Source of the DNA: Crossiella sp. SN42
GTDB taxonomy: Bacteria > Actinomycetota > Actinomycetes > Mycobacteriales > Pseudonocardiaceae
Reading direction: 5' to 3'
DNA: 64,000 nt
Assembly (NCBI RefSeq): GCF_023897065.1
Contig: NZ_JAMHIV010000014.1
Location: forward strand, 124,001-188,000
The notes under the pieces were generated by a model that saw only the letters and a program-made list of their open reading frames with translations, did no database searches and had not been told where the DNA came from. Of this stretch, positions 46,179 to 57,278 are shown piece by piece. Position 1 is the first letter of the stretch, and each line of letters opens with the position of its first letter. Both the position numbers and the translations under genes were made by a program.

Positions 46179-46250
46179 GGGCGCATAGCTCAGTGGGAGA
46201 GCACTCGCCTTACAAGCGAGGGGTCGTTGGTTCGAACCCAACTGTGCCCA
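46179..46250 (+). tRNA. tRNA-Val (anticodon UAC)
   Basis: The cloverleaf is complete: acceptor GGGCGCA (46179-46185) pairs with TGTGCCC (46243-46249) with one G-U pair. The D-arm is in TAGCTCAGTGGGAGAGCA, the anticodon stem is CTCGC/GCGAG with loop CTTACAA (anticodon TAC at 46211-46213), and the T-arm is GTTGG-TTCGAAC-CCAAC. CCA is not encoded (ACCC follows). The serine recombinase gene on the minus strand ends inside it, at 46210. TACGCT at 46159-46164, about 15 nt upstream, is a plausible -10 box. Confidence 0.96.
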
Positions 46251-48051
46251 CCCAGTACCGCTTATTCGAACCGCGACCCTTGGGGTCGGGTTTGAGCAGG
46301 TCAGCAAGGTTGATAGCAGCGGCGGCACCACCTGTGAGGGTGGTGCCGTTTTTGCTGTGTGCTGAGCCGTCCCAGGGCACGAACTGGGAGGCGCTGAGGT
46401 TGCCTGTGTCGCCCTGTGCGGGGCGAGGGGCGGGGATAGCTTCGGTGAGCCGGTAGCGCTCTGGTGCGGCGGTGCTGAGCACATCGAAGGGTTGGTTCAG
46501 CCTGTGGCTGGTGACGGTGATGGCGCGTTCGGTGTCGGTGTTGATGTCTATCCGGTTGATCACTGATTTGAGGAAGGCGGCGCGGGCGGTGTCGTCTCCG
46601 TAGAGGTAGACGGGGCCTGGTTGGGCCAAGATGGTGGCGGCGGCGTTGAGGTAGTCGCGTCCGGTGTGCAGGACGGTGTCGATGTCGGCTAGCTGTTGGG
46701 TCACATTGGCGATATCAGCCCGAATGTCGCGCATCTCATCGTCCAGGGCGTCCTCGGGCCAGCGGGGGTCGCCGAGTTTGCGGATGCAGCCGCGTACCGC
46801 GTCGTTGAGCAGTTTGAGTTGGCGGTTCAGGGTTTTGCGGGTGGCGGCGGAGTCGGTGCGTTCATCCCGGACGATGGTATCGAGTTGGCGGGCGAGGGCG
46901 TGCCGTACCGGTTCGGGCAGGGTGATGGTGTCCAGGTGTGCGGCTACGGCGTGCTCCAGCTCGGCCACGGGCAGGTACGGCAGTGTGCAGCGTTTGTCTT
47001 TGATACCAATACAATAATAGTATTCATAGATGCCGCCGTTGCCCTTGGCGGGTGTGTAGATCAGCCGCTCGTTGCCGCAGCGCCCGCACCACAGATAGCC
47101 CTTGAGGTCGTGGTGGTGTTTACGGTCGCGGGTACCGGCTCCGCCGTTGCGGTCCACGGTCAACACTTCTTGCACCCGGTTGAACAGGTCTTCTGTGACA
47201 AGGGGTTCGTGCAAACCGGGGTACCATTGGCCGTCTTGTTCAACATAGCCGCAGTAGTAGCGATTTTGAAGCAGGTAACCGAGTTGGGTCAGGGAAAGCG
47301 GGCGTTCGGGGAGGTCTTTCCACGGGGGCATGAGTAGCCCGGCGGCGGTGATCATCTCTAAGACTTGGGCTTGGCTGTATTTTCCGGTGGCGTACAGCTC
47401 GAAGGCGCGTCGGATGTGGCGGGCGCATTCCGGGTTGATCATGATGGTGGGAACGCTGCGTTTTTCCTTGCCGATGGTGATGGTTTCGCGGGTGTTGAGG
47501 TAGCCGATGGGGGCGCGGCGTACGGTGTGGCCGCGTTTGGCTTTTTCGGCCATCTTGTAGCGGACGTCTTCGCTGAGTTTGGCCGAGTAGTACTCATCTA
47601 GATCGTGTTTGAGGTTTTCCAGCAGTTGGGTATCGGGGTTGTCTTCAAAGCGGCTTTCGGGGGTGATCAGTCGTACGCCGAGCTTGTGTAGTTCGAGTTT
47701 GACCAGTCGGGCTTCTAGGGCGTTGCGGAAGATCCGCGAGAACTGGTACATGATGACCAGGTCAACATCTTTGATTGTGGTGATGCGCCGGATCATGTCC
47801 TGGTAATCCTTGCGCTTCACGATAGATGTGGCGGTGCCTTTGTCGAGGTACTCATCGACAATATCGGCGTCCCAATCTGCAGCGGTGTCATCGGTGGCGG
47901 TGCGTTGGGTTGCGATGGAGTCGCCGTCACGGGTGCGGCCGGTTTGGGCTTGTTTGAGTGTGGACACTCGCAGGTAGCGCACTGCACGTTTACGCCGTGG
48001 TCCGGCAACAGTGTCGCGTGGGACGGTGGTTCGTTTCATCTCATCCCCCAT
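46210..48051 (-). CDS. large serine recombinase (integrase)
   Basis: This 613-residue site-specific recombinase has the resolvase catalytic domain: the serine is in RYLRVSTLKQ, and the arginines are in YQFSRIFRN. A recombinase domain follows, then a zinc ribbon (CGRCGNERLIY with a later CIGIKDKRC) and a coiled-coil region. It would integrate and excise the island. The last residues WVGTVGFEPTTPRL are encoded by the antisense of tRNA-Val, and the TAA stop is antisense of its anticodon loop. The start is ATG at 48051 or 48039; the XRE gene stop overlaps it. It appears full length and active. Confidence 0.93.
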   Translation of the reverse strand: MGDEMKRTTVPRDTVAGPRRKRAVRYLRVSTLKQAQTGRTRDGDSIATQRTATDDTAADWDADIVDEYLDKGTATSIVKRKDYQDMIRRITTIKDVDLVIMYQFSRIFRNALEARLVKLELHKLGVRLITPESRFEDNPDTQLLENLKHDLDEYYSAKLSEDVRYKMAEKAKRGHTVRRAPIGYLNTRETITIGKEKRSVPTIMINPECARHIRRAFELYATGKYSQAQVLEMITAAGLLMPPWKDLPERPLSLTQLGYLLQNRYYCGYVEQDGQWYPGLHEPLVTEDLFNRVQEVLTVDRNGGAGTRDRKHHHDLKGYLWCGRCGNERLIYTPAKGNGGIYEYYYCIGIKDKRCTLPYLPVAELEHAVAAHLDTITLPEPVRHALARQLDTIVRDERTDSAATRKTLNRQLKLLNDAVRGCIRKLGDPRWPEDALDDEMRDIRADIANVTQQLADIDTVLHTGRDYLNAAATILAQPGPVYLYGDDTARAAFLKSVINRIDINTDTERAITVTSHRLNQPFDVLSTAAPERYRLTEAIPAPRPAQGDTGNLSASQFVPWDGSAHSKNGTTLTGGAAAAINLADLLKPDPKGRGSNKRYWVGTVGFEPTTPRL

Positions 48052-48310
48052 TGAGGAGTTCGGCGAGCCGTTGATACGGCGGCAGCAGTTCGAAAGCGGT
48101 TCGAACGTCTACCGCAAGAACCTCAATGAGTCCAATCAAGACCTCCGGGGTTGGTGTGGGGGTGGTGCCGTTTTCGATCCGGGCCACTGTCGTATGGCTG
48201 ATATCGAGTTGGTCAGCAAGTGCGCGTTGACTGATTTTTTTGGTGGTGCGTGCTGCGGTGATCAGTTCACCGAAGCTGTTCGGGGCGGGGGTTGCGGGCG
48301 GTGGTGTCAC
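48041..48310 (-). CDS. XRE-family helix-turn-helix regulator
   Basis: This 89-residue protein has a single Cro/C1-type helix-turn-helix: FGELITAARTTKKISQRALADQLDISHTTVARIENGTTPTP. The C-terminal tail is hydrophobic and short. Its stop overlaps the recombinase start, so it is translated together with the recombinase and probably controls the integration operon. The upstream 228 nt (48311-48538) contain a cluster of CTAGC motifs that could be its operators. Confidence 0.88.
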   Translation of the reverse strand: MTPPPATPAPNSFGELITAARTTKKISQRALADQLDISHTTVARIENGTTPTPTPEVLIGLIEVLAVDVRTAFELLPPYQRLAELLNGG

Positions 48311-48388: not shown

Positions 48389-48537
48389 CTAGCAGCCGGG
48401 CCTGCTAGCTCTAGCAGTCCCTCTAGCGCCTGGCGGGTGTGCTGACCTGGGGTTGTGTCTCTAGCGGGTGAGGCCGGCGAGGGCCTCGGTTTGGGCCTGG
48501 GTGGGGGGGGGGGGGGTGACAGCGAGCAGCTGCTAGC
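48389..48537. repeat. cluster of six CTAGC motifs, including a perfect hairpin
   Basis: CTAGC occurs at 48389, 48405, 48411, 48423, 48461 and 48533. CTAGCAG (48389-48395) and CTGCTAG (48402-48408) form a 7-bp inverted repeat with loop CCGGGC. The stretch lies upstream of the XRE gene and downstream of a small resolvase-like gene. CTAG words are usually rare in such genomes, so the density suggests operators or recombination-related sites. Confidence 0.6.
48503..48516. repeat. homopolymer of fourteen G residues
   Basis: Fourteen consecutive G occur on the plus strand in the non-coding gap between a resolvase-like gene and the XRE gene. Such tracts can vary in length by slippage and can also be assembly artefacts. 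Confidence 0.7.
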
Positions 48538-48538
48538 G

Positions 48539-48892
48539 CTAGAACGGGTCGGGGCAGGCCACAGTGATCCCTAGGTCAGCGAGTTTCTGATGGACGAGCA
48601 AGTCGCCGATAAGGCCACGGGGCATGAAGTCCAGTCGTGAGCGGGCGAGGTGCATGTGCGCCCAGACGAAGGCGTGCGTCACGGATTCGTTGGCGGCTAG
48701 GTAGTCGAACATCTCTTCAAGGATGGGTGTCCCGTCATCAAGATCGGCGGGCCGGGCGAACTCGCGAACGATAGGAATACCAAGATTTTGGGCTAGTTCT
48801 TGGCAGAAAACTCGTTCAGGGTTAACGGTTCCTGGTTGGTCGAAGGCGATGTACAGCACTCCGACGGGGTTGGTTGGGTTACGTCGAGCCAT
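48539..48892 (-). CDS. degenerate serine-resolvase-like protein 1
   Basis: This 117-residue protein has the layout of a serine recombinase catalytic domain: VGVLYIAFDQPG as first strand, CQELAQNLGIPIVREF, ILEEMFDYLAANESVTHAFVW, HLARSRLDF, and a final LADLGITVACPDP. The catalytic YxRVSxxxQ motif is replaced by YIAFDQ, so serine and arginine are missing. This resemblance is my reading of the strand and helix order, not a database result. It is the last of a leftward row of three such proteins. It may be a regulator or structural partner. The ATG is at 48890-48892. Confidence 0.7.
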   Translation of the reverse strand: MARRNPTNPVGVLYIAFDQPGTVNPERVFCQELAQNLGIPIVREFARPADLDDGTPILEEMFDYLAANESVTHAFVWAHMHLARSRLDFMPRGLIGDLLVHQKLADLGITVACPDPF

Positions 48893-48916
48893 GGCGCTGT
48901 CTCCTTATCGGGTGGG

Positions 48917-49183
48917 TCAGGTGATCCAGGTGATGCCCATGGCGGCGAGTTGTTCAGCGAGGAGTTCGATACGTGCCTGTGCGGCGGGGTCGGTGATGGT
49001 GTCGGCGAAAAACACCACGGCGGTGGTGTGGGTGGTGACGTAGGTCAGGAGTTCGTCGATGTCGTGGCGAATGGTCTCGCTCACCCGGTAGCCCTTGGCT
49101 TTAGCGGTGTGCCCGGCGGTGTCGGCGTAGGTGGGGTTGGTGTCCACTGTGAACACCACCGCGGTTTTACCTTTCCTGGTCAT
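48917..49183 (-). CDS. degenerate serine-resolvase-like protein 2
   Basis: This 88-residue protein has opening TAVVFTVDTNPTYADTAGHTAKAKGYRVSETI, middle LLTYVTTHTTAVVFFADTI, and end ARIELLAEQLAAMGITWIT. These mimic the beta-alpha-beta order of a resolvase catalytic domain, without the catalytic serine. It resembles the next gene upstream. The ATG overlaps the stop of that gene (ATGA), so the two are co-translated. Function unknown. Confidence 0.68.
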   Translation of the reverse strand: MTRKGKTAVVFTVDTNPTYADTAGHTAKAKGYRVSETIRHDIDELLTYVTTHTTAVVFFADTITDPAAQARIELLAEQLAAMGITWIT

Positions 49184-49548
49184 GACATAGTGCCTTTCGT
49201 GGTGGTGGGTGGCGAGGGGTACTGGTCCTCGGGAATGGGCTCGGTGTGCAGGATTAGAGCGTTGCCGTCTAGGCGCATGTGATCGGAGACGTCGACCCAC
49301 TCCACTCCGAGGGCGGTGAACTGGTGACGCAGTCGGTTGATTCGGTGTTGGGTGTTGGGGTCATGCACAGGGTCGGCCGTATAGACCGCGTCGATGAGTT
49401 TTTCTGAGAGCAGGTTGCGCGGGATGGTGGCGATGAAGGTGTCAGTGACGGTGTAGCCGTGCCATCGTGCAATGCGGCAGGCGGCAATCTGGTAGGCGGG
49501 GAAGTCGTAGGCGGTGAACACGATCGCGGTGTTCTGGTGTGTGGCCAC
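49180..49548 (-). CDS. degenerate serine-resolvase-like protein 3
   Basis: This 122-residue protein has TAIVFTAYDFPAYQIAACRIARWHGYTVTDTF at the N-terminus and HRINRLRHQFTALGVEWVDV near the middle, clearly related to the protein encoded at 48917-49183, with a longer C-terminal tail. No catalytic serine motif is present. The GTG at 49548 has AAAGG 8 nt upstream and lies 5 nt beyond the translocase stop, so it is in the transfer operon. Confidence 0.68.
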   Translation of the reverse strand: MATHQNTAIVFTAYDFPAYQIAACRIARWHGYTVTDTFIATIPRNLLSEKLIDAVYTADPVHDPNTQHRINRLRHQFTALGVEWVDVSDHMRLDGNALILHTEPIPEDQYPSPPTTTKGTMS

Positions 49549-49553
49549 GGTTT

Positions 49554-51710
49554 TTACCTTTCGTTCGGTGTGCGGGGGTGCGGAATCTTGGCGGCGGCAA
49601 GGGCTGTGTGGAGATCGGCGCGGGTGATGGCGCGGCGGTTGGCCTTCACGCCGGTGTCCGGGTCGGTGTCCCAGTGCTGAACCGGCCGGATGCCATAGGG
49701 GCGTAGGGCGGTGGTGAGCTGGGTGGCTTTCGCCCCGCGCTCCAACTTCGCCCAGGCCCCATAGATGTCGGGTCGGAGTTGGGCGAGGCGGTCCACAATG
49801 GACTCGTTCCACATCACCGTGGCATCAACGGGAAAAACGGCGTTGATGTCGGCCAGCAACGAATCGGTGCGCGTGGTGTCCTGGGTGGTGGTTCCGGCGG
49901 TTGTGTCGAGTGCGTAGCCGGTCAGCCGGTCCTGGGCTTGGCGGAGTTGGCGGGCGCGTTCGGCGATGGCGGTGGCGCTGGGGGCGTCGGTGTAGACGCC
50001 GCGCACAATCACCGGCTCATCGGTAGCGCCCAACAGGTATCCGATTCCCTTGTCCCGCAAGGAGAAAATCGAAGGGCGGATACCGTTACGCCATGCCGAG
50101 GTGCCTAGGATCATGTCGGTTTCGGTCTGTCCCATGACTTTCAGGCACAACCTGACGGCGGCGTTCGCCCGGATTCCTGGCGGTAGGCTTTTTTCATCGG
50201 GTCGTTGGGTGGCCAGGATGGTGATGATTCCGACCGCTGGACCCCGGCGCACTAGATCGTCAACCAGGGCCGTGATGTCCTGGCCATGCTCGGGATGGGT
50301 AAACCAGTTCTGGCATTCATCAACACCCAGAACGATGGGATGCAGGCCAAGGTCACGCTGACCGGCTAGATGGGGGGTGATCTTGGATTCTGGGCACAGG
50401 TCGCGGGGAAGCTCACGCAGCACCGTCGCGCGGCGGCGTAGCTCGTCACGCAGTTCCCGGAGATCGGTGAGGGCATAGGCGATGTCGTCGTGGTCGTCAC
50501 CGGCCCGGTACCGGTGGGCGATGGCGGCCAGGGCGGCGTGGTCCCCGGTGCCTTTGAGGTCATAGACGTGCAACTGGGCGCGCACATCCAAGGAGGCGGC
50601 TAGGAGCAGCAGGCGCAGCCACACGGTTTTACCCATGCGCGGCAAGGCACCGATGACGATGGAGGTGAACATCAACACGGCGGTGACCCAGCGCCCGCGC
50701 GGATCGGTCCCGACCGGCACACCGTCGAACAGGTCGACGGTGCCCTTGGATGCGAGGGGCCAGCGGGGTTGCTTGGTGGTGGCCATGTCGGTGTGGGCGA
50801 CCCACAGCAGCAGCCGACCGGGGTGCACCTCGGGCATGGTTTCGGGCCACACGCAGCCCAACGGCCGGGACAGCGCCGAAGCCAACTTCGGGCGGCGTTC
50901 GATCACCTCCGCCGCGACCACACCCGGCGGCAGATCGACCACGGCGCGCCAGCCGGGGCCGTCCTGGGTGATCGGGGCCGGGAAGTGCGCGGCTTTGGCG
51001 TTGCGGATGCCGATGGCCTCCAACGCGCCCAGCACGTCGTTGCTGTGCAACGGTCGGGCTGTGGGGACCACGACGGCGCGGGTGACGATCGGCTTATCTG
51101 CTGGGGTGCCAACCCTGGCCAAGATCACCGCGAGGCCGGCGACCAGGACGGCGATCATCCACACGGGAGCGAACACCCACAGCGCCACACAGGCCAGGGC
51201 TGTCACCGCTGCTCCCATCAACACCATGCGGATGCGCTTGCTGATGCGTCGATTCCTCAGTTGGGTGAAGAAAAAATAGGTTTCACCGCGTGGCGGTGTG
51301 GCCGCTGCTGGCAGGCCGGGACCTGGCTTGCTGGCCGCTGATGCGGCGGCACTAGGTGGGGCAGCGGCGGGCTTGGTGGGGCGGGTCTCGGCATCGATCA
51401 TCCACCGCCACAACGCCGTGAGGATGATCCACGCCCCTGCCGGGGCGCGCCACAACAGCGCCACAGCAACGTACTTCGGCAGGCGCACCAGATGAAACCC
51501 GGCCGCATACGCCCCATGCCGGGCTAGGAACACCAGCGCGGCTCGCAGGGCAGTCCAGGAGCGCAGCCAGGCCGGGATGATGGGCCGCCGCTCTTCTCGT
51601 TGCGGCACAACAGAATCCGGGTTAGTGGTGTGGGGTTGATCAACCATCACCAGCTCGACCTGGTCCCGGTCGATGTCGTCGGTGTGGTGGGGGTCGCCGG
51701 TGGCGTTCAT
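49554..51710 (-). CDS. TraB/FtsK-SpoIIIE-type DNA translocase of the island
   Basis: This 718-residue membrane ATPase has helices in two groups (about 45-105 and 160-200) and a C-terminal motor domain. Walker A is GALPRMGKT (about 354-362), Walker B is PIVLGVDECQ, and ILATQRPDEKSLP is the FtsK-type sensor region. In actinomycete integrative conjugative elements such proteins move double-stranded DNA between mycelial cells. The ATG at 51710 has AGGAG before it. The downstream resolvase-like genes form one leftward operon with it. Confidence 0.9.
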   Translation of the reverse strand: MNATGDPHHTDDIDRDQVELVMVDQPHTTNPDSVVPQREERRPIIPAWLRSWTALRAALVFLARHGAYAAGFHLVRLPKYVAVALLWRAPAGAWIILTALWRWMIDAETRPTKPAAAPPSAAASAASKPGPGLPAAATPPRGETYFFFTQLRNRRISKRIRMVLMGAAVTALACVALWVFAPVWMIAVLVAGLAVILARVGTPADKPIVTRAVVVPTARPLHSNDVLGALEAIGIRNAKAAHFPAPITQDGPGWRAVVDLPPGVVAAEVIERRPKLASALSRPLGCVWPETMPEVHPGRLLLWVAHTDMATTKQPRWPLASKGTVDLFDGVPVGTDPRGRWVTAVLMFTSIVIGALPRMGKTVWLRLLLLAASLDVRAQLHVYDLKGTGDHAALAAIAHRYRAGDDHDDIAYALTDLRELRDELRRRATVLRELPRDLCPESKITPHLAGQRDLGLHPIVLGVDECQNWFTHPEHGQDITALVDDLVRRGPAVGIITILATQRPDEKSLPPGIRANAAVRLCLKVMGQTETDMILGTSAWRNGIRPSIFSLRDKGIGYLLGATDEPVIVRGVYTDAPSATAIAERARQLRQAQDRLTGYALDTTAGTTTQDTTRTDSLLADINAVFPVDATVMWNESIVDRLAQLRPDIYGAWAKLERGAKATQLTTALRPYGIRPVQHWDTDPDTGVKANRRAITRADLHTALAAAKIPHPRTPNER

Positions 51711-51847
51711 GGCACTCCTGTAGTCGGCGGGGGGATGCTGCAGAAGGGAAAGGAAAGCCAGGCACCGCACCAACAGTGGTGGGGACGGTGGCCGCGGTGC
51801 CTGACTGATCCGGGCACATCCCTTGTGGCGCAACGCCTTGGAGGGGG

Positions 51848-52036
51848 TTAGTCCTCGCGTTCGCCATCGCGGTGCTTCGGCTCGTCCGACTGCGATCGGG
51901 CTGCTTCGCTGTCCTGCTCCTGTTGCCGTTGCAGGTGCCGGGCGTAGGCAATCACCGCGTGTGCCAACAGGATCACGTCGATCTTGCGGCGCAGGTGCAC
52001 ATGCGCCCGGATGCGGTGCCGTTGATGCTTGGCCAT
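51848..52036 (-). CDS. small basic protein of unknown function, 62 residues
   Basis: The protein opens MAKHQRHRIRAHVHLRRKIDVILLAHAVIAYARHLQRQQEQ: a basic stretch, then a helix, then an acidic, hydrophilic tail. Small genes like this usually precede the transfer gene in actinomycete conjugative elements. Its role is unknown. ATG at 52034-52036. Confidence 0.5.
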   Translation of the reverse strand: MAKHQRHRIRAHVHLRRKIDVILLAHAVIAYARHLQRQQEQDSEAARSQSDEPKHRDGERED

Positions 52037-52047
52037 GTGCCTGCCCC

Positions 52048-52275
52048 CTAGAGCCAGCGGCGGGTATGCGCCGCCCGTGCCCGCATGCGTGCGGTGTATG
52101 CCACAACGCGGGCGGTGTGCGTAGAGATGGGGTCCACTGTGGCCAGAAGCTCATACATTTCGGCTTTGTGGAGCCAAAACCGCACCCAAGCCCGCGCTGG
52201 TGCGTCGTAGGCCGGGATGGATGCTAGGTGTGCGCGGATCGCGGCACAGACTTCGGCGCGGATCGTTGATGCCAT
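52048..52275 (-). CDS. small helical protein of unknown function, 75 residues
   Basis: The protein is rich in alanine and arginine (MASTIRAEVCAAIRAHLASIPAYD and HTARVVAYTARMRARAAHTRRWL) and is predicted to be helical. The ATG at 52275 has GGAGG 9 nt upstream, while the frame upstream of it is not codon-like. It is the first gene of the leftward transfer operon and divergent from the GntR gene. No family is recognised. Confidence 0.55.
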   Translation of the reverse strand: MASTIRAEVCAAIRAHLASIPAYDAPARAWVRFWLHKAEMYELLATVDPISTHTARVVAYTARMRARAAHTRRWL

Positions 52276-52424
52276 AGGGAAATTGCCTCCGCTAACGGTG
52301 AGTGGCGGCCATTGTGGACGCACAAATCTCACCGTACGGCGATCCACCGCAAAGTCTAGAAACCGTTGGCATGAAACAAAAAGCATGTACACCGCATGCA
52401 CTGCATATGCCATAGTATGGAGTT
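52276..52424. promoter_or_regulatory. divergent promoter region between transfer operon and gntR
   Basis: This 149-nt AT-richer gap separates the leftward transfer genes from the rightward GntR-type gene. In related elements such a regulator represses the transfer genes from this position. I see AGAAACCGTTGGCATGAAAC and TGCATATGCCATAGTATGG near 52360-52420 as candidate promoter or operator sequence. Confidence 0.5.
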
Positions 52425-52844
52425 ATGCGGTACAGACGGCGTAGTCCCCTTGTTGCGTATCAACGGATCGCCGATGAGCTACGTGCCAAGATCATCGCGG
52501 GCACGATCGCCGTGGGTAAGCAGCTCCCCGCGTTTTCGTTGCTGGCTAAGCGATACGGCGTCTCGGTCGGCACGATCCAAACCGCGATCGGTGTGCTGGT
52601 GGAGGAGGGCTATGTGGTCTCTGAGCCCGGACGCGGCACCTGGGTGGTCACGTCCGGGCATCAGAGCGCTAGTGAGGGTTCGCAGATGGCTCTAGCGGAA
52701 GCTCATGCCTTCGTTGTCGAGCTTCGCGCTGGGGTTAACCGGCTTCGGGACGCTCTGCGGCTTCGGCCTCGGCGGCGCGGGCTTCGTCGAGAAGATCGTC
52801 CGCCTCATACAGAAGATCGTCCAGATCGTCGCGAAACCCCCTGA
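52425..52844 (+). CDS. GntR-family regulator of the transfer region (KorSA-like)
   Basis: This 139-residue protein has a GntR winged helix: YQRIADELRAKIIAGTIAVGKQLPAFSLLAKRYGVSVGTIQTAIGVLVEEGYVVSEPGRGTWVV (about residues 12-76). The C-terminal 40 residues are arginine-rich, and that stretch overlaps the oppositely directed coiled-coil gene. The real C-terminus is therefore short and may be partly chance sequence. It probably represses the adjacent transfer operon. Confidence 0.85.
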   Translation: MRYRRRSPLVAYQRIADELRAKIIAGTIAVGKQLPAFSLLAKRYGVSVGTIQTAIGVLVEEGYVVSEPGRGTWVVTSGHQSASEGSQMALAEAHAFVVELRAGVNRLRDALRLRPRRRGLRREDRPPHTEDRPDRRETP

Positions 52845-52938
52845 GTTCCTCGGCGAGCTGCTCCACCTGCTCGCGTGTCTCTCGCTGAGCCAGTGTCAGG
52901 TAACGAATTTTGGCCAGGATGCGGTTAAGCCGGTCCAT
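52735..52938 (-). CDS. small acidic coiled-coil protein, 67 residues
   Basis: MDRLNRILAKIRYLTLAQRE, then heptad-like VEQLAEELRGFRDDLDDLLYEADDLLDEARAAEAEAAE. The composition is strongly helical and acidic. It overlaps the 3' end of the GntR gene in antiparallel orientation by 110 nt, and the codon use looks more natural in this frame. Small coiled-coil proteins of this kind have no assigned role in such islands. Confidence 0.55.
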   Translation of the reverse strand: MDRLNRILAKIRYLTLAQRETREQVEQLAEELRGFRDDLDDLLYEADDLLDEARAAEAEAAERPEAG

Positions 52939-53555
52939 CTAAATCCTTTGGTCGGCGCGTACGCGGCCAGACCCCCGAAGCGCCCCCATGAACGACAATG
53001 GGTAGCGCGGCTACGTGTGGTGTCTGTCCTGTGTGTACGCAGAAACCATGAGCCCCGTGGGCCTTTGGCGATATGCCACTGAAACGGAGCAACGAACAAA
53101 GACGCCCCGGTGGGCGCAAGTCATGGCCCCATCGGGGCCGTGGGCGCTTGGGTCAGCGACTGAACCGGGTCAGCAGGCGGGAGGGGGCAGGGGGGTGGTG
53201 TTGGTGGCCGTCATGGTCGATCAACTCCCAAACTGTTGTGCTGCAACGCAACACCAACGCTAAGCCGGTGATCCTGTAGCGCGCAGCACCCAAGACGGTA
53301 TGACCTGCTCAGAGCGGCCAAACCGGGTCAGGGTCGCTCGTTAGAGACCTTCGGCGCACCCCAGGGCTAGCGGAAACCTTCACGGTGTGCCCGGCACCGG
53401 TTACAGTAGGCCGTTTTGCCCCCGGCCCGCGCCCATGGGGCGCTAACGTAGCGTCGCGCCATCACCCGATCGGGGACCAGTAGTGGGCGGTCAACCCTCA
53501 CCACGGGTGGTGATCGCGGTCCACATCAGACACTCAGCGCGGGCAGGTAGGGCGC
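52939..53555. other. 617-nt non-coding stretch, candidate origin or transfer site
   Basis: No reading frame here has convincing composition. The stretch has a perfect 16-bp palindrome TCACCACGGGTGGTGA at 53498-53513 and a hairpin GGCCCC-ATC-GGGGCC near 53125-53140. The island otherwise lacks an obvious origin, so this is the best place to look for the transfer origin or replication origin. That is inference. Confidence 0.35.
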
Positions 53556-53984
53556 TCACAACTCCTGGGTGACGTTCTTGGCGGTGTGCAGGGGCTTACC
53601 GCTGTGGCCGGTGGCCGGGTCCACTCCGAGCCAGGTGCTGACCTGGGTCATGGTGACCGGTGGGTCATCGGGGCCAGCGGTGGCGGCCAGGATTTGCCAC
53701 CACACCACCGGAAGCGGGGAGAGCAGGTAGGCAGCGAGCACGGGCACCAGGGCGCAGGGGCCGGGCAGGCCCAGCCGGGTGCGGCAGGCTGGGCACCGGC
53801 CCCGGTGGTTGAGCTGGTGTGGACCCAGCACCGCCCACAGCGCGCCGTGGGTCCGGACCAAGCCTCGGCGCAGGCCAGCAGGCGCGGGGCTGTTGGTGGT
53901 CTCAGCGTTCTGCAGGGCTTGGGTGATCGTGCTCAGGTAGGCGGTCACGGCCCGGTACTGGCCCACCGCAGACGGCCCGGTCAC
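53556..53984 (-). CDS. zinc-finger-like protein of unknown function, 142 residues
   Basis: The protein opens VTGPSAVGQYRAVTAYLSTITQALQ and contains a CPACRTRLGLPGPC cluster that may bind zinc. A helical C-terminal half has PVTMTQVSTWLGVDP, a possible helix-turn-helix. The GTG at 53984 overlaps the stop of the resolvase-like gene upstream, so it is translated with it. No family is recognised. Confidence 0.6.
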   Translation of the reverse strand: MTGPSAVGQYRAVTAYLSTITQALQNAETTNSPAPAGLRRGLVRTHGALWAVLGPHQLNHRGRCPACRTRLGLPGPCALVPVLAAYLLSPLPVVWWQILAATAGPDDPPVTMTQVSTWLGVDPATGHSGKPLHTAKNVTQEL

Positions 53985-54409
53985 CGCTGTCCATCCGGGT
54001 CGCTGCCGCCGCTGGCGCTGGTGCCGTTGGTGGTGGCGCGCTCGCGTAGCTCGGTGATGCTGGGTCCGCCCACGGTCAGCACCTGCGCCACCGCGGCCAG
54101 CAGGCTGTAGGCGCGGGCGGCGGCGTGGGGGTCGCGGGAGAGGTGCCACAAGGTTGGCATGACGACGACGTCCACAGCGAGCAGGGCAGCGATGTCCAGG
54201 CAGGCGGTCAGGCCGGGCCGGTGTAGTCCGGCGCGTGGGTTCCGGCCGGTGTCGATCGGCACGGCTAGGACCTCGTATCCGGCTTTGGTGCACCACGCGG
54301 TCAGCCGGGCGCGTACCCGTGCAGCGTCGTCGGGGTGGGCCACCCGGCCATAACCCACGGCCACCACACCGGTGCCAGAGGGGAGGCGGGTGAGGCGTTC
54401 GCGGCACAT
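53981..54409 (-). CDS. degenerate serine-resolvase-like protein 4
   Basis: This 142-residue protein has VAVGYGRVAHPDDAARVRARLTAWCTKAGYEVLAV, LTACLDIAALLAVDVVVMPTLWHLSRDPHAAARAYSLLAAVAQVL. This follows the resolvase catalytic domain: YxRVS becomes YGRVA, so the Arg is kept but the Ser is lost, and LSRD keeps one of the later arginines. It is probably not a recombinase. It is the middle gene of a three-gene leftward operon. Confidence 0.75.
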   Translation of the reverse strand: MCRERLTRLPSGTGVVAVGYGRVAHPDDAARVRARLTAWCTKAGYEVLAVPIDTGRNPRAGLHRPGLTACLDIAALLAVDVVVMPTLWHLSRDPHAAARAYSLLAAVAQVLTVGGPSITELRERATTNGTSASGGSDPDGQR

Positions 54410-54666: not shown

Positions 54667-54953
54667 GATCCGGTTCGCCTCCAGTGTCCTCAATGGACAA
54701 CAGGTCAGGGGCAACCGGAGCCGGGCCGGGAGGGGGGAGCGGGCCGCTGGTCAGCGTCGGGGGCTACTCACCAGCGGCACCCGGCCCCGGTTGCCGCTGG
54801 GCACATTGCCCGGATTAATCCAGTGTGGGCGATAGGTGCCCACCTGTTCCCACCTTCACCCACCACCCCCCGCTCAGTCGGTGCGGCAGCTGGCGCACCG
54901 TGGCTAGGCTGGCGGTGTCCCTACCCGGCACCCCAGCGCCACAGGCGGCACCC

Positions 54954-56198
54954 ATGGCACACCAGCACCAAACCCGTGCGGCACAAGGCAAACTCGGGGC
55001 GTTGCTTGGCCGTATGGCCAAGCAAGCGGGGGTGACGCATCAGCAGTTGGCTACCGCCACCGGCTATAGCCGCTCCTACATTTCCCACATCATTGCCGGG
55101 GATGATGTTCCCGCGCGCCGGGATTTTTGGGCTATCGCAGACGAGATTGTTCATGCCCAGGGTGCGTTGCTGGCCGAATTCGAGCACCACCAAGCACAAC
55201 GTGATAGCCCGGCTGCTGGTGCGCTGGTGTCCCCAGCGGGAGTATGCGCAGATGATGAGCTGCACGCGCTAGAGCTGGTGCGCCGGGTGCATGCCTCGGA
55301 TGTGGGCCAGGAAACCCTTGCCGCACTGGAAGAACACGCCGATGCCCTAGCCGTGGCCTATGCCAGCAGTCACCCGGAACAGTTGTTGCCGTTCCTGCGC
55401 CGCTATCTGTCCTACACCCAAAAACTTATGGATGCCCGTGCCACCGTGAGCGATAAGCGGCGGCTGGCCGTGGTGACCGGCTGGCTATCGTTGCTGGCGG
55501 CCACAGTCCATATTGATTTGCACAACATCAGCACCGCGGGCACCTATCTCCAGGCAGCGGAAAGCATCGGCAAAGACGTCGGCCATCACGAGATTCGGGC
55601 GTGGGCCTATGAAACGCGGGCGTGGCAGGTGTTGACCGCAGGCGAGTATGCCAAGGCTCTGACCCTTGCACAGGTGGCGCAAGATATCGCCCCACCGGGC
55701 AGTTCAGTCGAAGTACAAGCCGCTGCCCAAGCCGGGCGCGCCCTAGCGCGTTTGGGTGAGCGGGCCGCCACCGCTACGACCATTCACCGGGTGCAGCAGC
55801 TTGCTGAGGCTCTACCAGTGGTCAAACCGATGCAGCACCACTATCAATACGACGCCACCAAATCCCTGGCCTACACCGCCACCACACTAGCCTGGGCCGG
55901 TGACCCGGCAGCGGAATCCTATGCCCGCCAACTCATCACCAACCTCACCCCCGCTGTGGGCGATACCGGAATCTGGCCGCGCCGGGTTATCGCCGCGCAT
56001 TTGGATTTGGCCCGTACCTTGGTGGTGACCGACCAGTTGGATGAAGCCGTAGCCCACACCCATACAGCCATAGCGTCCGGCATCGTGCCCTCGAATCGGT
56101 GGCGCGCCCTAGAAATCGTTACAGCGACTGAACGACGCGGGCTAGCCGCCGCTGTCGAGCTACGCGAAGCATTCACCGAACTCGAACGCGGCAACTAG
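54954..56198 (+). CDS. XRE-family regulator with TPR-like C-terminal domain
   Basis: This 414-residue protein has a helix-turn-helix near the N-terminus (LGALLGRMAKQAGVTHQQLATATGYSRSYISHIIAGDDVP), then a long alpha-helical part (about 90-410) with tetratricopeptide-like repeats such as AGTYLQAAESIGKDVGHHEIRAWAYETRAWQVLTAGEYAKAL. This layout occurs in actinomycete regulators that sense peptides or signalling molecules. The ATG at 54954 lacks a clear ribosome-binding site. It is convergent with the DUF397 gene, overlapping it by 4 nt. Confidence 0.85.
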   Translation: MAHQHQTRAAQGKLGALLGRMAKQAGVTHQQLATATGYSRSYISHIIAGDDVPARRDFWAIADEIVHAQGALLAEFEHHQAQRDSPAAGALVSPAGVCADDELHALELVRRVHASDVGQETLAALEEHADALAVAYASSHPEQLLPFLRRYLSYTQKLMDARATVSDKRRLAVVTGWLSLLAATVHIDLHNISTAGTYLQAAESIGKDVGHHEIRAWAYETRAWQVLTAGEYAKALTLAQVAQDIAPPGSSVEVQAAAQAGRALARLGERAATATTIHRVQQLAEALPVVKPMQHHYQYDATKSLAYTATTLAWAGDPAAESYARQLITNLTPAVGDTGIWPRRVIAAHLDLARTLVVTDQLDEAVAHTHTAIASGIVPSNRWRALEIVTATERRGLAAAVELREAFTELERGN

Positions 56199-56401
56199 GA
56201 AATGGGGCGGATCCGGCCGGCGACCACACCATCCACAAAGGACCGCCACGCCAGCGGGCTAAACGACAACACCGGGCCACTACGGTGTTTCGAGTCGCGG
56301 ACGTCGGTACTGATACCGTGCAGCATCCTGCATTCGACACAAGCGGGTCCGTCGTCGCTGTAACTGCTTACCAGCCAAGGAGATTGTCTCTTAGGCACCA
56401 T
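56195..56401 (-). CDS. DUF397-domain protein
   Basis: This 68-residue protein has the DUF397 pattern: WLVSSYSDDGPACVECR, then VRDSKHRSGPVLSFSPLAWRSFVDGV. Genes of this family almost always lie next to an XRE/DUF5753 regulator, as here. The pair resembles the WhiJ-associated cassettes of Streptomyces. It overlaps the XRE gene by 11 nt. Confidence 0.92.
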   Translation of the reverse strand: MVPKRQSPWLVSSYSDDGPACVECRMLHGISTDVRDSKHRSGPVLSFSPLAWRSFVDGVVAGRIRPIS

Positions 56402-57278
56402 TGAGAGCCTCTAACTTGCGCCGTATGTACTTGGCGCTGTCTTCTGGGCTTAGCGCTAACTCTCGGACGGCATTAAACGCGGATGTCAATCCCGCCGTTT
56501 CCATGTCGCTATCGAGGTAGACGGCTGGGCCGTAAATGACATGAGCAAAAGCTATGCGTAACTCGATCGATTCAAAGTCGAGCACGGTGAGGCCACCACT
56601 TGATATCGGGTTATCCAGTCCGCCCATGGGATGGACCAGCTGAATCGTTAGGTTGGGATGGGAGTCAAGCAGTCCTAGAAGATGCTTGAGTTGCTCGCGA
56701 AGCACCGACACATAGAGGGCGCTGGCCTCTAAAGTGTCCGAAGTAAAGACAAACTGCAACTGCTTACACTCATCAGCTAATACGGCGCGTTGTCGATCTC
56801 GCCTGAACTTGACCCGATGTTCTACTTCGGCGTCGGACTTTTCCCAAAAGACGCCATCGCCCGCTTTGATTACTGCGTGTACATAGGTGGGAGACTGCAA
56901 TAGTCCGGGTATCACTCCGGGTGAGTATGTGCATATTGTGTCCGCCCCTACTTCCAGATTGGCCCGTCGCAGAAAGTCGTTTGATAGCGCACCCTCGTAG
57001 CTTTTATATTCCGATGGTTTGCGCCTCAGTTTGCGTGCCGCCTGGGCACCTAAGATGAGAATGCTCGCGCTGGTCTTCTCGGAAACTTGGAGGAATCTTA
57101 GGAGGTCGGACAGCTCTGAAGCGTTAAGCTTTGCGATACCTTCTTCAATTTTGCTTACTTTAGATTCGGCGCAATCAAGCAGTCGGGCAACCTCTAGTTG
57201 AGTGCGGTTGCTTCTGAGCCTATGTTGCCTTAATGCGGCACCAAGTTTGATGCGCTCCTCAGTGCGCAGTGTTGACAT
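56391..57278 (-). CDS. XRE/DUF5753-type regulator (WhiJ-like)
   Basis: This 295-residue protein has an N-terminal XRE domain (KLGAALRQHRLRSNRTQLEVARLLDCAESKVSKIEEGIAKL) and a DUF5753/Scr1-like C-terminal domain (TICTYSPGVIPGLLQSPTYVHAVI, IQLVHPMGGLDNPISSGGLTVLDF). It partners the DUF397 gene downstream. The codon use and GC are clearly lower than in the flanking chromosome. Such pairs are implicated in development and possibly in toxin-antitoxin-like control. Confidence 0.92.
   Translation of the reverse strand: MSTLRTEERIKLGAALRQHRLRSNRTQLEVARLLDCAESKVSKIEEGIAKLNASELSDLLRFLQVSEKTSASILILGAQAARKLRRKPSEYKSYEGALSNDFLRRANLEVGADTICTYSPGVIPGLLQSPTYVHAVIKAGDGVFWEKSDAEVEHRVKFRRDRQRAVLADECKQLQFVFTSDTLEASALYVSVLREQLKHLLGLLDSHPNLTIQLVHPMGGLDNPISSGGLTVLDFESIELRIAFAHVIYGPAVYLDSDMETAGLTSAFNAVRELALSPEDSAKYIRRKLEALNGA

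Follow-up and report, generated by a model that had tools for sequence, protein, structure and literature searches.

The window analyzed in this study, a stretch of 64,000 nucleotides from Crossiella sp. SN42 (contig NZ_JAMHIV010000014.1, positions 124,001 to 188,000), contains an island that is similar to the actinomycete integrative and conjugative elements (AICEs). An intact large serine recombinase (LSR) and a TraB-like protein are encoded in this island together with four small open reading frames (ORFs), P1 to P4, of which P1 resembles the N-terminal domain of an LSR devoid of its catalytic serine. An earlier note on this DNA had described P1 to P4 as one family of resolvase-like, serine-less proteins, three of them in tandem behind the TraB-like gene, that could act together as partners of the LSR or as a defense complex. 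The four ORFs were confirmed at their predicted positions, every one on the minus strand, as were the intact LSR, with its three domains over cut-off and its catalytic residues kept, and the tandem arrangement. The genes TraB, P3, P2, and P1 are tightly spaced in the same direction, with an ATGA overlap between P3 and P2 and an AAGGAG motif ahead of P1. A plus-strand reading of the four ORFs was ruled out, as stops interrupt P1, P3, and P4 on that strand; the P2 span is open on both strands, and its minus strand was preferred because of the codon-position GC values (0.55/0.48/0.81), the overlap with P3, and the paralogy with P3. The LSR carries the markers of an AICE-type site-specific integrase, namely the three domains and a gene end inside tRNA-Val.

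When searched alone, P1 had no Pfam or NCBIfam match. Together with P1', its copy in a sister element of the same genome, it matched a profile of the LSR N-terminal domain (hhalign probability 99%, E 8e-18), and P1' itself passed the Pfam Resolvase cut-off (4e-8). At the aligned active-site columns, P1 lacks the serine and keeps one of the three arginines. Both copies are without helix E, with the match ending at position 113 of the 157 positions in the profile, and P1 is a stand-alone protein that contains no other parts of an LSR, including the DNA-binding ones.

A single alignment was used to compare the active sites of LSRs and small proteins, with residues numbered after the gamma-delta resolvase. 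All 35 LSRs keep R8, S10, R68, and R71. Among ten small proteins, S10 was found in none, R8 in seven, R68 in four, and R71 in nine; these ten (P1, P1', P4 and its sister copy, an ORF from the genome G016 of the same genus, and five from other genomes) are not independent of one another. Judged by the catalytic serine and the arginines together, the small proteins are predicted not to be active serine recombinases.

Table 1. Features of the island, with positions in the window.
Feature	Positions	Strand	Basis
P1, 117 aa, serine-less protein resembling the LSR N-terminal domain	48539..48892	-	hhalign 99%, E 8e-18 (with sister copy); active-site columns
Segment of P1 swapped between two sister elements	48543..48854	-	Windowed identity and base-level boundaries
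P2, 88 aa, possibly a decayed resolvase domain; paralogous to P3	48917..49183	-	33% identity; joint profile tests
P3, 122 aa, possibly a decayed resolvase domain; paralogous to P2	49180..49548	-	33% identity; joint profile tests
TraB/FtsK-like ORF	49554..52154	-	tblastn to plasmid protein; sister homology
Small helix-turn-helix (HTH) regulator, located between the genes of P1 and the LSR	48041..48310	-	HTH_3 4e-12
Intact LSR, 613 aa	46210..48051	-	Resolvase, Recombinase, zinc ribbon over cut-off; catalytic residues kept
tRNA-Val(tac), into which the LSR gene extends with its 3' end; presumed attachment site	46179..46252	+	ARAGORN
P4, 142 aa, serine-less resolvase-domain protein, separate family	53981..54409	-	Pfam Resolvase 8e-8; homologues
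P5, open frame downstream of P4, without family; conserved in the elements of L008 and G016	53556..54053	-	

The sister element is located at a tRNA-Pro (locus L008), and its gene order from P4 to the LSR is identical to that in the window. The divergence between the two elements varied among the genes. Protein identity was 98% in P3, 92% in P2, 96% in P4, 81% in the HTH regulator, 77% in TraB, 43% in P1, and 34% in the LSR, and the synonymous divergence (dS) followed as 0.013, 0.064, 0.097, 0.375, 0.49, 0.86, and 0.99, respectively. Within P1, the swapped segment, measured in 60-bp steps, has an identity of about 40-63%, compared to 98% and 95% on its two sides, and the nucleotide identity falls at codon 13 and recovers within a few bases of the stop. 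This sharply bounded and deep divergence suggests that P1 was exchanged, or kept from homogenization, as the LSR was. A run of approximately 13 C residues was also seen between P1 and the HTH gene (window about 48504-48516), and it is shorter and interrupted in the sister element.

Small domains of this kind were also observed beside LSR genes elsewhere. The LSR was searched in 345 genomes of the class and matched at 1e-20 in 30, with the N-terminal domain matched in 26 of the 30 loci. Where 900 bp of upstream sequence was available, a small ORF similar to the N-terminal domain preceded the LSR in four of 20 loci, one of which is the window, and none was found downstream of the LSR in 21. Among all 39 fetched loci, which came in part from searches with the small proteins, nine had such an upstream domain: the window, L008, and one each in G603, G407, G428, G348, G007, G016, and G033. 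Two of the nine are weak, being the G016 ORF and the G033 ORF (L179), which resembles a truncated recombinase. In G603, G407, G428, G348, and G007, the small gene runs into the beginning of the LSR gene (starts as interpreted), and the neighbors resemble coupling-protein and replication-relaxation genes, as named by eye. The small domains of G603 and G407 end near profile position 136-141, with part of helix E gone. The ratio of nonsynonymous to synonymous divergence (dN/dS) of the small genes was 0.33 for G407/G428 and 0.30 for G603/G407. For three related pairs, the identity of the small protein tracked that of the LSR N-terminal part (0.94/0.80, 0.80/0.57, and 0.81/0.57), and the LSR C-terminal identity was 0.60-0.64. 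A phylogeny placed P1 and P1' in a different half from the other five small proteins (support 97/98), and a single clade of all seven was not rejected (approximately unbiased test, p 0.27). A further protein of 150 amino acids in G555 (L109:9431-9883), with a GYISL motif and a weak Resolvase score of 22.1 bits (cut-off 23.3), lies in a locus that was fetched through an LSR C-terminal match and was left out of the pair count.

The LSR genes accompanied by a small gene ended in a tRNA or tmRNA gene in eight of nine cases, compared to 12 of 29 without one (Fisher p 0.02, uncorrected for relatedness). In a separate comparison of eight LSR genes with ends in tRNA or tmRNA genes, the protein tail of seven (window 46210-46252, L008, L106, L107, L108, L177, and L178) included a G-x-E-P motif, such as GFEPTTP, which is encoded on the antisense strand of the tRNA gene. 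Among mobile elements, the G407 small protein matched 35 phage and 196 plasmid records, with recombinase or integrase annotations where annotated; four viral loci from the small-protein scan were covered by an automatic ORF scan alone. P1 had one weak plasmid match (E 0.3), P3 and P4 had none in plasmids, and for the sister LSR neither plasmids nor phages gave a match at 1e-30, nor did an IMG/VR pattern search. IMG/VR pattern scans for P1, P2/P3, and P4 returned candidates, none of which was confirmed.

The resemblance of P2 and P3 to the resolvase domain is suggestive. The two are paralogues (33% identity, z about 17), and neither has an accepted Pfam or NCBIfam family match. An initial profile comparison with the LSR domain was negative (probability 1.4%). 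With a wider template that included P1, P4, and the other small proteins, a joint P2/P3 profile with P3 trimmed scored 31.5 (E 4.7e-5, probability 68%), which exceeded every score obtained with 150 shuffles (maximum 16.9), 314 real proteins taken singly (maximum 22.6), and 69 real pairs (maximum 20.7). The scores of P2 alone (21.0) and P3 alone (19.9) were within the range of single proteins, where 11 of 314 reached at least 20, and the two-row joint profile scored 23.9, or 21.5 with P3 untrimmed. Relatives of P3 were absent from 296 other genomes of the family, and those of the P2/P3 alignment from 59 other relatives, i.e., both were present only in the genome that carries the window (one of 297 and one of 60, respectively). 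A P3 match in the G016 locus L190 (E 5e-4) was dropped, as it was absent at E 0.01 in a second search.

P4 passes the Pfam Resolvase cut-off and has an alanine at the serine column. Its homologues were found in eight of 120 family genomes, its own included, and five aligned homologues have the motif without the serine, as read by eye. Four loci with P4 homologues (L191-L194) contained no relative of the window LSR (E 1e-3) or TraB (E 1e-4), while the G016 element, which also encodes P4, has both. The serine-less proteins in L191-L194 carry motifs such as GYLRLEE and GYVRVVR. By these comparisons, P4 is a separate serine-less family that occurs also without the window LSR, and it would have a separate role. 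The earlier claim that all four proteins form one family acting together is not supported, given the P4 loci and the restriction of P3 and P2/P3 relatives to a single genome. The serine-less resolvase character was upheld for P1 and P4 and is suggestive for P2 and P3. The proposed defense complex found no support, with zero PADLOC families for seven proteins.

Other features of the island were compared with those of AICEs. The TraB-like ORF is 46.5% identical (coverage 82%) to an FtsK-annotated plasmid protein (tblastn), and it is below the cut-offs of Pfam FtsK_SpoIIIE (18.5 bits, cut-off 24) and NCBIfam plasmid_TraB (23.5 bits, cut-off 800). Its true start may lie inside the ORF, since the sister homology begins near 51884. 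A Pfam scan of ten window proteins, a subset of the ORFs, showed no replication initiator or Prim-pol. A direct repeat of at least 12 bp from the window tRNA end was absent from the stretches searched, and two 12-bp matches in L008 were taken as chance. The third element, in G016 (L190), includes P4, P5, GntR, TraB, HTH, and LSR genes, and its LSR gene ends inside a tmRNA gene (L190:2310-2681). Within window 54825-57278, an NsdA-family regulator over the NCBIfam cut-off and an HTH gene (56391-57278) are both conserved in the G016 element, so that the window element probably extends past 57.2 kb; the NsdA-family regulator had no significant match in L008.

P1 is tentatively proposed to be a catalytically dead copy of the integrase N-terminal domain that acts as a protein partner or modulator of the adjacent serine integrase, a reading that we hold with somewhat less than even confidence. 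The support is circumstantial and drawn from sequence comparison, and consists of the homology to the LSR N-terminal domain, a depth of divergence that is similar to that of the LSR and unlike that of P2 and P3, and the serine-less domains found upstream of LSR genes elsewhere. The dead integrase partner suggested by the earlier note is thus retained for P1, at this strength, and is not supported for a four-member family. P1 would dock on the integrase N-terminal domain or helix E as a decoy subunit, alter which integrase dimers or tetramers form, and thereby gate or steer integration and excision. It would be made alongside the transfer operon, when the element must leave the chromosome. Proteins of the P1 type would do no cutting and could occupy the surfaces where integrase subunits pair, with possible effects that include blocking re-integration, blocking untimely excision, or promoting excision. 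The position of P1 with the transfer genes favors an involvement in excision. A small gene that overlaps the integrase gene is instead placed with the integrase, and this arrangement favors a permanent brake or an obligate partner. P2 and P3 may belong to the same group in a more decayed form.

Several observations weigh against P1 as an integrase partner. P1 scores 27 (z 0.3) against its own LSR and 81 against the sister LSR, compared to 129 for P1' against its own LSR, and it matches the G016 LSR at E 1e-8, so that it is not nearest to the LSR beside it. Its dN/dS is 0.62. The middle of TraB (window 49874-51350) is also mosaic, mostly with 57-88% nucleotide identity to the sister element between flanks of over 90%, and the exchange is hence not particular to P1. 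The G016 element is without P1 to P3 and has a different small ORF between its HTH and LSR genes. In a search of four proteins, this ORF reached E about 1e-7 with the profile of the LSR domain, and hhalign gave 87%, but it was weak among all ORFs (E 0.0018) and had no Pfam match. An upstream small gene is missing in 16 of the 20 LSR loci, and the partial selection of the 39 loci by the small proteins themselves counts on the same side. Additionally, there are counter-cases that retain the serine: G656 (L167) encodes a stand-alone domain of this kind whose fetched locus showed no LSR, and L125 contains two neighboring recombinases that both have the serine motif.

Among the alternatives, P1 could be a recombination directionality factor (RDF) proper, built from an integrase domain, that switches the LSR from integration to excision. 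Its place in the transfer operon, which the element requires at excision, and its divergence together with the LSR agree with this, as does a 2017 review, according to which integrative and mobilizable elements (IMEs) with serine integrases had no identified or proposed RDF (PMC5704250). Phage RDFs such as gp3 of phiC31 are small proteins encoded by the element as well, in the steering role proposed here for P1. However, gp3 binds the C-terminal zinc domain of the integrase (PMC5814800), whereas P1 is built from an integrase domain. Some serine recombinases also excise without an RDF: TndX needs none (PMC5704250), and the AICE Faln2929 excises with no identifiable one (PMC3218068). With the gene overlap in the five outside cases, the integrase would seldom be made alone. 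An RDF proper is considered unlikely.

It appears less probable still that the small proteins are functionless relics, i.e., 5' fragments of integrase genes that were duplicated or left behind when modules were exchanged. In favor of this, such exchange occurs in these elements, P1 is closer to the LSRs of other elements than to its own, and its dN/dS and the truncated-recombinase look of the G033 ORF also agree. In contrast, an HTH gene separates P1 from the LSR gene, P1 and P1' are both intact at a dS of 0.86, and the genes of G407, G428, and G603 have dN/dS near 0.3 and overlap the LSR start. Quite as improbable is a role of P1 to P3 in conjugal transfer or its regulation with TraB, the LSR resemblance being mere ancestry: the tight operon with TraB and a P2/P3 divergence unlike that of the LSR speak for it, but P1 has diverged together with the LSR, TraB is present in the G016 element without P1 to P3, and no relatives of P1 to P3 were seen in 32 TraB-relative loci. 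The latter loci contained no relative of P1 to P4 or of the window LSR at E 0.01 in the available flanks, and P1 to P3 as a usual part of TraB elements was rejected.

The component parts of this arrangement are known. The catalytic N-terminal domain of LSRs (Resolvase, Recombinase, and zinc ribbon) is homologous to P1, which in contrast stands alone without the catalytic serine and the DNA-binding domains. CcrA and CcrB of SCCmec are two serine-recombinase-derived proteins that are used together and, unlike P1, both are full-length and catalytic. The window element shares with AICEs a site-specific integrase and a tRNA site, and it has a single TraB/FtsK-like ORF as the candidate transfer gene. 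It differs in the extra dead resolvase-like genes, and no replication gene was recognized among the proteins scanned. In one survey, 19 of 144 AICEs use serine recombinases, and their integration into tRNA genes is called rare (PMC3218068). No LSR accompanied by a dead N-terminal domain as a separate protein was found in the literature searched, which was available in part and included few subscription papers and no bioRxiv preprints, and the pairing of the two looks new.

In a broader reading, which we regard as doubtful, actinobacterial serine-integrase elements would have turned the serine-stripped integrase N-terminal domain into a general and as yet undescribed class of stand-alone control subunits, which would supply the missing control of directionality or timing in integrative and conjugative elements (ICEs) with serine integrases and would have multiplied to P1 to P3 in the window element. 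The discovery of RDFs for newly found LSRs was named as future work in one study (PMC10083194), and the small domain might also serve as a compact natural modulator of the serine integrases used in genome engineering. For the control of excision in ICEs and IMEs that rely on serine integrases, a dead integrase domain, whose gene in several elements overlaps that of the integrase, would be a concrete and easily tested candidate.

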